DNA of 50,014 nt from the NCBI GenBank assembly GCA_017459665.1, contig JAFUCN010000017.1, positions 1 through 50,014 of the forward strand. The letters run 5' to 3'. The first letter of the stretch is position 1. Each line of letters starts with the position of its first letter. The notes under the pieces were generated by a model. The model did no database searches and had not been told where the DNA came from. It saw only the letters and a program-made list of their open reading frames with translations. The translations under genes were made by a program, and so were the position numbers. Of this stretch, positions 13,332 through 44,765 are shown piece by piece. This DNA comes from Methanobrevibacter sp. Lineage in GTDB: Archaea; Methanobacteriota; Methanobacteria; Methanobacteriales; Methanobacteriaceae.

Positions 13332-13353
13332 ATTTTTAGGCATGCCTAAAAAT
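13332..13353. promoter_or_regulatory. Perfect 22-bp palindrome abutting the TATA box of the methyltransferase gene
   Basis: The core TTTAGGCATGCCTAAA extends outward to a perfect 22-bp palindrome (13332-13353) and runs into the TATA-like AATATTTATA at 13351-13360, so binding would exclude TBP/TFB. Related copies lie at 8189 and 44038. The core TTAGGCATGCCTAA fits the general shape of DtxR/SirR/IdeR-family sites (inference). Confidence 0.65.
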
Positions 13354-13403: not shown

Positions 13404-14096
13404 ATGGGATTTTTTGACAATATGCGAAAACCACAAGGAAAATTGGGAAACATACAGCTCAAATCAATGAACAAGGAACACACACCAGTTTCACTATGGG
13501 GTCTCAAACATTTGGACATCAAAGAGGATGATATAATATTGGATGTAGGCTGCGGCGGCGGAATCAACCTGAAGAGAATGGCACAAAAGGCCAAAAAGGT
13601 ATATGGTGTTGACTACAGCTTAGAAAGCGTTAAACTCTCACGTGAAGTTAATGAAGATAACATTAAAAAAGGAAAAGTTGAAGTCTTAGAAGGCAATGTC
13701 CAAAGCCTGCCATTTGACGATAACACATTTGATATTGTAACAGCCTTTGAAACAGTCTACTTCTGGCCGGACATTAAAAATTCATTTGGGGAAGTGAAAA
13801 GAGTATTGAAACCTGGCGGCATATTTCTGATTGGAATGGAATCCAACGGATCAGACAACTTCATAATGAGATTCTGGAGCCGTTTCATAGATATGAAAGT
13901 ATACAGCGACAGTGAAATTAAGGAATTTTTAGACTTCAATGACTTCAGCAAAATAACAATCTATCTAAGGGACGGCAAAAACAAACAGGAGATAATTAAA
14001 ACTGATGGAAATGAAAAAAGAATCGATGATGATTATGACAATGTTTCATTTTCGGATAAATTCCTGCAATGGATGACAGTAGTTGCTCAAAAATAG
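13404..14096 (+). CDS. Class I SAM-dependent methyltransferase
   Basis: 230 residues; an AAAGGATGATA element stands before the ATG. Motif I ILDVGCGGGINLKRMA (about residues 47-62) binds S-adenosylmethionine. The acidic post-I residue is in VYGVDYS, motif II is PFDDNTFDIVTAFETVYFWPD, and motif III is EVKRVLKPGGIFLIGME. This is the UbiE/COQ5-like methyltransf_11 fold, with the acceptor undetermined. It is preceded by the perfect palindrome at 13332-13353 and is therefore probably tightly regulated. The stop lies 2 bp from the stop of the convergent nuclease gene. Shared operator sequence with the radical SAM gene at 8218 suggests the two could work on one pathway, but this is inference only. 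Confidence 0.85.
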   Translation: MGFFDNMRKPQGKLGNIQLKSMNKEHTPVSLWGLKHLDIKEDDIILDVGCGGGINLKRMAQKAKKVYGVDYSLESVKLSREVNEDNIKKGKVEVLEGNVQSLPFDDNTFDIVTAFETVYFWPDIKNSFGEVKRVLKPGGIFLIGMESNGSDNFIMRFWSRFIDMKVYSDSEIKEFLDFNDFSKITIYLRDGKNKQEIIKTDGNEKRIDDDYDNVSFSDKFLQWMTVVAQK

Positions 14097-42575: not shown

Positions 42576-42610
42576 GGATTTATTTTCTTTTCTTTATTTT
42601 TTTGATTCAT

Positions 42611-43921
42611 ATGTATAAAAGATTAATTGTTTTTATTTTAATAGGTTTTCTAGCTGTTTCAGCTGTCAGTGCTGCAGATGAAGCTGTCGGAAGTTTCAGC
42701 GAACTTCAGGATATTATTGACAATGCTTCAGAAGGTTCTGTCATTAACCTTACAAAGGATTATGTCAATGATATGGGCCGTGAAATTAACATAGAAAAAG
42801 TATTAACAATTAATGGTAATAATCATGTTTTGGATGGAAAATCCAAATCTGGAATTTTTAATATATACTCACCAGTCATATTAAACGGCATTACATTTGT
42901 AAATGGTAAATCATCAATGGGTGGGGCTGTTTTTCAAAACAATGGTGGTGAGATTAACAATTGTATATTTAAAAACAACAAAGCCGAATATGGTGGAGCT
43001 GTCTATCAGGTGGACGGTAAGATTTCAAACTGTGAGTTTAGAAAGAACACTGCCCAAAGTGATGGTGGTGCGGTCTATCAGATGAACGGTAAGATTACTG
43101 ATTCAAAATTCACATCAAATGGTGCCAAAATTGATGGTGGTGCTGTCTATCAAGAAAACGGTGATATATCCTCATCTGAATTTAAGAATAATCATGTAGA
43201 TATTCAAGGAGGTGCTGTCAGCCAGAAAAACAGTAAGATATCAGATTCTGTTTTTAGAGGTAATGTGGCTAAAACGTCAGGCGGAGCGGTCTATCAGGAA
43301 AACAGTGTTGTTTCAGACAGTGTTTTTACCAATAACAAGGTCGATTATAAAAACGATGGACTGACATATTGGGGCGGTGCCGTTGACCAAAAGGACAGTG
43401 TAATACGTGATTCAACATTCATATCCAATTCAGCCATGTATGGTGGTGCTGTAAGCTCATACTTGGGAAACAAGATTTACAATTCAACCTTCATAGCCAA
43501 TAAGGGTATTGACGGCGGAGCGGTATTTCAACTTGAAAGCAGCATTTATGATTCCACTTTTTTAAATAATCATGCTAATCGTGGTGGAGCAGTCTATCAG
43601 GTTGAAAGTGGCGTTTATTCATCAACATTTACTGAAAATTCCGCTAATGAAGGCGGTGCTATCGAGCAGTATTCAAGTACCACTGAAGACTCATCATTTA
43701 CAAACAACACTGCCAAATACGGTGGTGCAATTTATACTGAGGATAGTGAGATTATCAACTGCACTTTCACAGGCAATCATGCTAATCACGGTGATGATAT
43801 ATATCCTGGTGGTGAAAATGGTTCTGAATATGAAATAAACACACAAAATCAGAGCGGTAATCCGATTTTGCTGTTGTTATTGTCATTGGTTGTTCCTGTT
43901 TTTTATAGGAAATTAAATTAA
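42611..43921 (+). CDS. Beta-solenoid adhesin-like protein with C-terminal anchor
   Basis: 436 residues from the ATG at 42611 (the TTG at 42602 is out of favour). A signal peptide ends around SAVSAADEA. Residues about 95-395 are twelve coils of 23-24 residues, each starting GGAV/I followed by a four-residue turn and an FxxNxA strand (one coil is 31 long), a Chlamydia POMP-like parallel beta-helix. The C-terminus is a membrane span NPILLLLLSLVVPVF plus RKLN, so it is anchored at both ends of a rod-like domain. Unlike the first two adhesins it has no Ig-like or Lys-rich tail. The stop overlaps the micro-ORF on the other strand by 4 bp. Confidence 0.85.
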   Translation: MYKRLIVFILIGFLAVSAVSAADEAVGSFSELQDIIDNASEGSVINLTKDYVNDMGREINIEKVLTINGNNHVLDGKSKSGIFNIYSPVILNGITFVNGKSSMGGAVFQNNGGEINNCIFKNNKAEYGGAVYQVDGKISNCEFRKNTAQSDGGAVYQMNGKITDSKFTSNGAKIDGGAVYQENGDISSSEFKNNHVDIQGGAVSQKNSKISDSVFRGNVAKTSGGAVYQENSVVSDSVFTNNKVDYKNDGLTYWGGAVDQKDSVIRDSTFISNSAMYGGAVSSYLGNKIYNSTFIANKGIDGGAVFQLESSIYDSTFLNNHANRGGAVYQVESGVYSSTFTENSANEGGAIEQYSSTTEDSSFTNNTAKYGGAIYTEDSEIINCTFTGNHANHGDDIYPGGENGSEYEINTQNQSGNPILLLLLSLVVPVFYRKLN

Positions 43922-43980
43922 TTATCTTTTTCTTCTATTTCTTTTAATTTTTCTTTTATGTTGTCAATTCCTATAATCAT
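43918..43980 (-). CDS. 20-codon micro-ORF under the palindrome promoter
   Basis: Too short for routine gene calling. On the minus strand, CTGGAGGATTAAT immediately precedes ATG at 43980 and a peptide of the form MIIGIDNIKEKLKEIEE... ends at TAA (43918-43920). A TATA-like TAAATATTTAAATATC and the palindrome at 44038-44053 lie upstream in the right order and spacing. The peptide would be a charged amphipathic helix. The excellent ribosome site plus a shared operator argue for expression; function unknown. Confidence 0.55.
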   Translation of the reverse strand: MIIGIDNIKEKLKEIEEKDN

Positions 43981-44037
43981 ATTAATCCTCCAGTTTTTTT
44001 TAATTAATATTATGTTTATTTTAATGATATTTAAATA

Positions 44038-44053
44038 TTTAGGCATACCTAAA
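44038..44053. promoter_or_regulatory. TTTAGGCATACCTAAA palindrome over a minus-strand promoter
   Basis: One central mismatch pair from a perfect TTTAGGCATGCCTAAA palindrome. On the minus strand it is followed at once by a TATA-like ATTTAAATATCATT, exactly the order seen at 13332. It would control the micro-ORF at 43918-43980. Confidence 0.6.
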
Positions 44054-44081: not shown

Positions 44082-44765
44082 TTAGAGATGAGAAACAATC
44101 AAATCAAAGAGTTCCTTGGTTTTGTCGGTTGCAGTCCTCTCTGAAATATCTTCTGGTATTTCATAAACAAATGTAGGATAGCCTGCCTGAGCTATAGGTT
44201 TTGATACCAAAACGGCAGAAGTGGATTTATAAGTTTCATTGCCTGTAACCGGATAATAGTTGAAATCGGTTGTATTATTGATTTGACCGGCAATATTGAC
44301 TGACACATCATCCATTTCAGGTGTTGCCAGATAGAATCCCTGTCCGTAGGATGCAATATGTGAATGGCTAATGATTACTGCATCGGCATCTGAAGATGTA
44401 ACATGAGGATTTATAAAGTCATGAACAAGACTTTCACCGTTTGCACGGCCAATGCTGTAGTCATCAGGATGATCTGTTACAGTAACCTTATAATTGATAA
44501 TCTTCACGTTATCGTTGCCGTATTCCTTTGCAGCTTCTATTTCAGGCTCGATTGACAATGTTTCCCTTGGATGGATGCCTGTTATGAGTGCAATGGCAAC
44601 TGGTGCACTTTCATTTCCAGAAATGCCAACTTCAACACTTCCTATGTCTGTATCTGCAAGGGTAGTGTATGAAATTTCATTGTAATTGTAATTTTGCATA
44701 AAGGCAATGCCTCCAACGACTAAAAGAAGAGCAATAATAAGAATAATTTTAGTGGCTTTTTTCAC
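44082..44765 (-). CDS. Membrane-anchored protein resembling M14-type metallocarboxypeptidase-like hydrolases
   Basis: 227 residues, starting at GTG with AGGTGAT upstream. An N-terminal span (ILIIALLLVVGGIAFM) precedes an extracytoplasmic domain with APVAIALITGIHPRETLSIEPEIEAAKEYG, reminiscent of the HxxE zinc motif of M14/AstE-like enzymes, then ISHSHIASYGQGFYLATPEM and the end FVYEIPED where a catalytic Glu could lie. The evidence is motif-level only. If true it may trim peptide or amide bonds in the envelope. Divergent from the FAD protein at 44852. Confidence 0.5.
   Translation of the reverse strand: MKKATKIILIIALLLVVGGIAFMQNYNYNEISYTTLADTDIGSVEVGISGNESAPVAIALITGIHPRETLSIEPEIEAAKEYGNDNVKIINYKVTVTDHPDDYSIGRANGESLVHDFINPHVTSSDADAVIISHSHIASYGQGFYLATPEMDDVSVNIAGQINNTTDFNYYPVTGNETYKSTSAVLVSKPIAQAGYPTFVYEIPEDISERTATDKTKELFDLIVSHL

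Follow-up and report, generated by a model that had tools for sequence, protein, structure and literature searches.

Introduction

DtxR/IdeR-type iron regulons are organised around a palindromic TTAGG...CCTAA operator, include feoB among their targets and probably control the gene of their own repressor. Escherichia coli MntS, a protein of 42 amino acids, is produced under metal shortage, while its DtxR-family regulator MntR is inactive; it appears to restrain the manganese exporter MntP, by an inhibition thought to be direct or indirect (PMC4361602). The iron-sparing response of Bacillus subtilis comprises FbpA, FbpB (48 aa) and FbpC together with the small RNA FsrA, which are co-repressed by the iron regulator (PMC7430163). 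Among methanogens, sP26 of Methanosarcina mazei (23 aa) was reported to interact with glutamine synthetase, and the sRNA154 sORF of Methanosarcina (20 aa) is leaderless and highly conserved in its genus (PMC11957540, PMC11456600).

The locus described here lies in a window of 50,014 nucleotides from Methanobrevibacter sp. (contig JAFUCN010000017.1), the window being the whole stretch of DNA that was analysed. Comparison among genomes establishes a unit of operator, TATA box, GGAGG site and ORF that is under purifying selection, independent of its neighbours, and preceded by an operator common to feoB and, as a variant, dtxR. With a probability of about 0.78, we read this unit as a stand-alone gene for a peptide of 18–22 residues, which a DtxR-type iron repressor would hold off and iron scarcity would switch on; the micropeptide is very probably made when iron is short.

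Layout of the locus

The micro-ORF occupies positions 43918–43980 of the window, as the original prediction had it; the strand, which had not been named, is the minus strand, with the start ATG at 43980–43978 and the stop at 43920–43918. Its 20 codons plus stop encode the peptide MIIGIDNIKEKLKEIEEKDN. Read 5' to 3' on the minus strand, the unit consists of a palindrome, the TATA-like sequence AATATTTAAATA (44029–44037), an A/T-rich leader of about 40 nt, the ribosome-binding site CTGGAGGATT (43984–43993) and the micro-ORF. The palindrome, TTTAGGCATACCTAAA at 44038–44053, is a predicted DtxR-type repressor site that abuts the TATA box; in the minus-strand reading it is TTTAGGTATGCCTAAA (44053–44038) and has the form TTTAGG-N4-CCTAAA. 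On the opposite strand, the gene for a convergent adhesin-like protein with PMP/beta-helix repeats (42602–43921, plus strand) ends at a stop codon (43919–43921) that shares two bases with that of the micro-ORF, an overlap already noticed in the original prediction.

A second exact copy of the operator (13335–13350) precedes a gene for a UbiE-like class I SAM methyltransferase (13404–14096, plus strand; Methyltransf_11, E 1.5e-26). Both exact operators were found with a TATA box adjoining, in agreement with the proposal that the palindrome and TATA box stand before the methyltransferase gene in the same arrangement as before the micro-ORF. These are the two exact TTTAGGNNNNCCTAAA sites of the window, where a first-order Markov model predicts about 0.004. 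A gene at 44082–44765 (minus strand), with the micro-ORF operator on one side and a mercuric/dihydrolipoamide-reductase-like gene on the other, encodes a 227-aa protein with an N-terminal membrane segment and without a Pfam match, relatives of which occur near two other micro-ORF loci.

Distribution and history of the peptide

An ORF of 20 codons is by itself no evidence of a gene; the micro-ORF is credible because it is conserved across the genomes of 39 species. With 211 bp of the micro-ORF region as query, blastn gave strong matches in about 30 Methanobrevibacter genomes, and all of the long matches that reach the ORF and were examined encode the same peptide. The search was widened by a degenerate codon pattern and then by a profile of 27 peptides, and divergent homologues were inspected individually. 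The profile matches 39 of the 67 Methanobrevibacter genomes, with one strong match in each, and the peptide is 18–22 aa long throughout, with the consensus MIIGIENLKEKQKEKEESE. A GGAGG- or GAGG-type site precedes nearly all homologues, and the operator stands ahead of 38 of the 39 genes; the TATA box of these 38 units has the consensus TTTAGGcATaCCTAAAtATTTATATA. The overlooked micro-ORF under a shared, metal-type operator that had been proposed is thus borne out, and the gene for 20 amino acids, which normal annotation would miss, is real as judged from this conservation. The one copy without a recognisable operator or TATA box (L168:515-583, genome G017) has a strong hairpin (ATGGATTGATCCCCCCATCAATCCAT) immediately before its ribosome site.

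The named carriers all belong to Methanobrevibacter, including M. millerae and M. thaueri, and are mostly of ruminant origin. Searched against 72 genomes from the family's other genera, the profile gave nothing passing E 0.01, and the best borderline matches outside Methanobrevibacter, read one by one, were judged to be chance. A pattern match in Oceanobacillus showed no short ORF on scanning and was likewise taken as chance. Two other resemblances were set aside: SerA and a FecE-like ABC ATPase both contain IGIENLK-like stretches, which the peptide might have mimicked, but with E near 1 per genome, and a likeness to a ubiquitin helix (IENVKAKIQDKE) in a PDB search had E ~7, a chance value. 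The peptide sequence was not found in any paper of the open-access literature.

On a tree of the DtxR protein, the deepest branches of the genus lack the peptide and most of its core has it, with scattered genomes lacking it and 12 changes in all. The simplest account would be that the peptide arose once, near the base of the core, and was later lost in places. Incomplete MAGs explain some of the absences; others fall in genomes estimated to be 99% complete, and the peptide is therefore dispensable in some species. Its loss several times within Methanobrevibacter likewise indicates that it is not essential.

The operator, its repressor and the regulon

The same operator with its TATA box was found, in this and related genomes, before feoB, a MacB/LolD-like ABC ATPase, LCM-type methyltransferases, an ABC exporter and a P-type ATPase operon. 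Nearly all genomes have a single close DtxR-type repressor (strong matches in 60 of 67), made up of a DNA-binding Fe_dep_repress domain, a metal-binding Fe_dep_repr_C domain and an FeoA-like tail. The window's own MAG (81% complete) yielded no dtxR gene, and three other peptide-positive genomes (G006, G007 and G024), one of them estimated to be 99% complete, gave no strong match. Upstream of dtxR (L190-L248), the TATA box of 53 of 59 genomes is adjoined by an operator variant that is asymmetric and reads mostly TTTAGGNNNNCCAAAA, which suggests that dtxR regulates itself through a weaker site. The iron uptake gene and, through the variant, the repressor gene share one operator, as in a DtxR/IdeR regulon. 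Because the operator stands before feoB and, as a variant, before the gene of an FeoA-tailed repressor of DtxR type, the regulon is most likely iron-responsive. In M. voltae, the FeoAB and DtxR proteins shift together when the cells sense Fe(II) limitation (PMC8516115).

Members of the DtxR family sense either iron or manganese, and the peptide could be real while its operator answers to manganese or some other metal. We consider this improbable: feoB belongs to the regulon, the repressor has an FeoA-like tail, as is typical of the IdeR class, and the cysteine in its CEMEH stretch appears to align with the metal-site cysteine of DtxR. Relaxed to one mismatch, the operator pattern is not enriched genome-wide (52 sites vs 112 for the reversed control), so trust is limited to exact 16-mers and to TATA-linked sites, for which the control was 0.

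No co-inherited partner of the peptide was found among the operator genes tested. Co-occurrence with the P-type ATPase is uninformative about a partner, the ATPase being nearly universal, and the association with the LCM-type methyltransferase is weak (p 0.09).

Other arrangements of the operator were also observed. Paired operators about 70 bp apart flank a TATA box (L112, L114, L115, L129, L130, L006 and L004) ahead of both feoB and an LCP/DUF4012-like gene; they are followed by a conserved leader, CTCCAAAA...AATTAG...CACAATTTTCTAATT, for which Rfam gave no match. Tandem operators precede the genes for an 88-aa DUF6110 protein and a P-type ATPase (L005:1552-4001, genome G000, contig C78), an arrangement resembling metal-efflux ATPases with a small helper protein.

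Peptide or RNA?

Conservation of the peptide rather than of the DNA had been named in the original prediction as a check, and conservation at the amino acid level is what was found. A lack of codon conservation, which would have counted against that prediction, was looked for and not seen. In a set of 34 loci, partly located by codon pattern, pN/pS is 0.02 for codons 2–9, with pS at 0.54 and synonymous sites near saturation; from codon 10 onward the constraint is looser (0.50), and the overall value is 0.28. Among the 27 loci first found by plain blastn, diversity at the first, second and third codon positions is 0.05, 0.00 and 0.27 (permutation p ~0.001). Codons 1–9 are 88% identical between pairs of loci, whereas the ATG-anchored leader is only 36–39% identical; the operator reaches 94% (38 loci) and the TATA block 79%. 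Start codons vary (ATG, TTG, GTG), as do stop codons (TAA, TAG, TGA). Amino acids that stay constant while synonymous sites change are the mark of a protein-coding gene, and these comparisons place the peptide under purifying selection.

A dual-function RNA, in which the transcript would act mainly as an iron-starvation sRNA and the ORF would be secondary, is quite improbable on this evidence. The predicted transcript is short, many loci have a hairpin in or beside the stop codon (mean z -2.4), the same genomes have two other operator-driven units without an ORF, and sRNA154 of Methanosarcina with its conserved 20-aa sORF is a precedent. However, third codon positions near saturation with first and second positions fixed are the opposite of what a conserved base-pairing region would give, and the region around the start and the 5' half of the transcript are unstructured (mean z +0.1), behind a leader that is not conserved. 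The hairpin itself is weak in the window copy, weak or absent in several others, and is read as the probable 3' end of a short mRNA. Rfam gave no match above the gathering score, only sub-threshold snoRNA matches attributable to chance.

The first unit without an ORF (L003:2645-2830, plus strand, genome G000, contig C7; homologues L250-L279) is a conserved stretch of about 180 nt driven by operator and TATA box, with homologues in about 33 of the 67 genomes, a stem with compensatory changes and no Rfam match; it is a candidate iron-regulated small RNA. The second (L008:1310-1496, minus strand, genome G000, contig C99; homologues L280-L309) lies upstream of argG, occurs in about 50 of the 67 genomes and has a stem of about 12–14 bp (AACTCTTAATTGGG...CCCAATTAAGAGTT) with the conserved loop AAAGCCCATATAACTTTTCAACCTCAATTAT; it is a candidate small RNA or argG leader. 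The peptide and candidate RNA-1 co-occur (Fisher p 2e-4), an association confounded by phylogeny.

Independence from neighbouring genes

The surroundings of the unit change from genome to genome. The 30 loci with both flanks readable have 25 different pairs of neighbour families. Of 31 downstream genes, 25 are convergent; the 31 fall into 19 families, and none recurs as a constant co-directional neighbour. Because the neighbours vary from species to species and most downstream genes converge on the unit, the micro-ORF is a stand-alone gene and not a leader. That operator, TATA box, ribosome site and ORF remain constant while their surroundings change argues against both a leader peptide and an accident of a single locus. 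A leader peptide or attenuator of a downstream gene, for which the shortness of the ORF, its strong ribosome site and the hairpin after it would speak, is therefore very improbable: gene order refutes it for most loci, the peptide lacks a series of regulatory codons, and what is conserved is its amino acids and not its codons. The suggestion in the original prediction that the peptide might be a leader for a regulatory RNA finds no support, given the same gene order and a 5' leader that shows neither conservation nor structure. That the ORF is what remains of a formerly longer gene, its 5' end with the promoter kept, might be suspected from the 20 codons and the losses in some genomes, but is hardly credible given a length fixed at 18–22 aa in 39 genomes, independently different stop codons, strong purifying selection, the lack of any credible longer protein among the profile matches in the family and the PDB, and nothing significant in Pfam for members of at least 20 aa.

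Proposed mechanism

As a stand-alone, iron-regulated gene, the micro-ORF could work as follows. Metal-loaded DtxR on the palindrome would block the access of TBP and TFB to the abutting TATA box; upon loss of Fe(II), DtxR would be released, and a short mRNA of about 120–140 nt would be made and translated. The peptide, which is acidic (net -2) and whose consensus is not strongly amphipathic, would act post-translationally, its invariant N-terminal MIIGIENLK docking on a protein partner and its variable, charged C-terminal tail serving mainly solubility. The likeliest partners are a metal transporter or an abundant iron enzyme, through which the peptide would adjust the flux or the use of iron in the way that MntS acts on manganese; the choice of one of these over any other target is a guess, with the odds against it.

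Comparison with known systems

Methanobrevibacter is the dominant methane producer of ruminants and the human gut, methanogens have a large iron requirement, and annotation routinely passes over genes of this size. A strongly selected peptide of about 19 residues, tied to no fixed neighbourhood and probably wired to an iron repressor, is clean and inexpensive to work on: it lends itself to synthesis, tagging, deletion and a pull-down of its partner, and would thereby open the largely unknown iron-starvation response of these methanogens to direct testing. It is possible, though we hold it rather unlikely, that this is one of the shortest stand-alone metal-regulated protein genes, within the first archaeal iron-sparing network to be recognised, in which one DtxR-type repressor would govern a micropeptide along with a pair of structured small RNAs, and in which an iron transporter or an enzyme of methanogenesis would be retuned by the peptide directly when iron runs short.

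How does the locus compare with the systems described at the outset? With DtxR/IdeR-type regulons, Methanobrevibacter shares the palindromic operator, feoB and the probable self-regulation of the repressor, whereas its promoter is archaeal, its operator abuts the TATA box and a stand-alone micropeptide is included. The likeness to the B. subtilis response is that the operator here also drives a peptide and two candidate RNAs; a matching iron-sparing arrangement, formed by the peptide and the two units without an ORF, is speculative. The differences are that the B. subtilis regulator is Fur and the Fbp proteins are larger and basic, whereas the Methanobrevibacter peptide is acidic and probably under a DtxR-type regulator, and the role of the RNAs is only putative. 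MntS is a small protein under a DtxR-family regulator, and the regulator and operator found here agree with such control, while an effect of the micropeptide on a transporter would be hypothetical; MntS is twice as long, bacterial and concerned with manganese instead of iron, and no sequence similarity is visible. The sP26 protein and the sRNA154 sORF are methanogen peptides of the same size, yet they belong to a nitrogen context and to another archaeal class, and the sRNA154 sORF is leaderless whereas the micro-ORF has a ribosome site and a leader. MntS and sP26 are the closest working analogues, alike in how they act and not by common descent. To speak of a new kind of element, as the original prediction did for a metal-responsive small peptide, is too strong because DtxR-family-controlled MntS and archaeal small proteins of 20–23 aa are already known. 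The peptide is a new family, so far found only in Methanobrevibacter, of a known kind, the small proteins of metal regulons.
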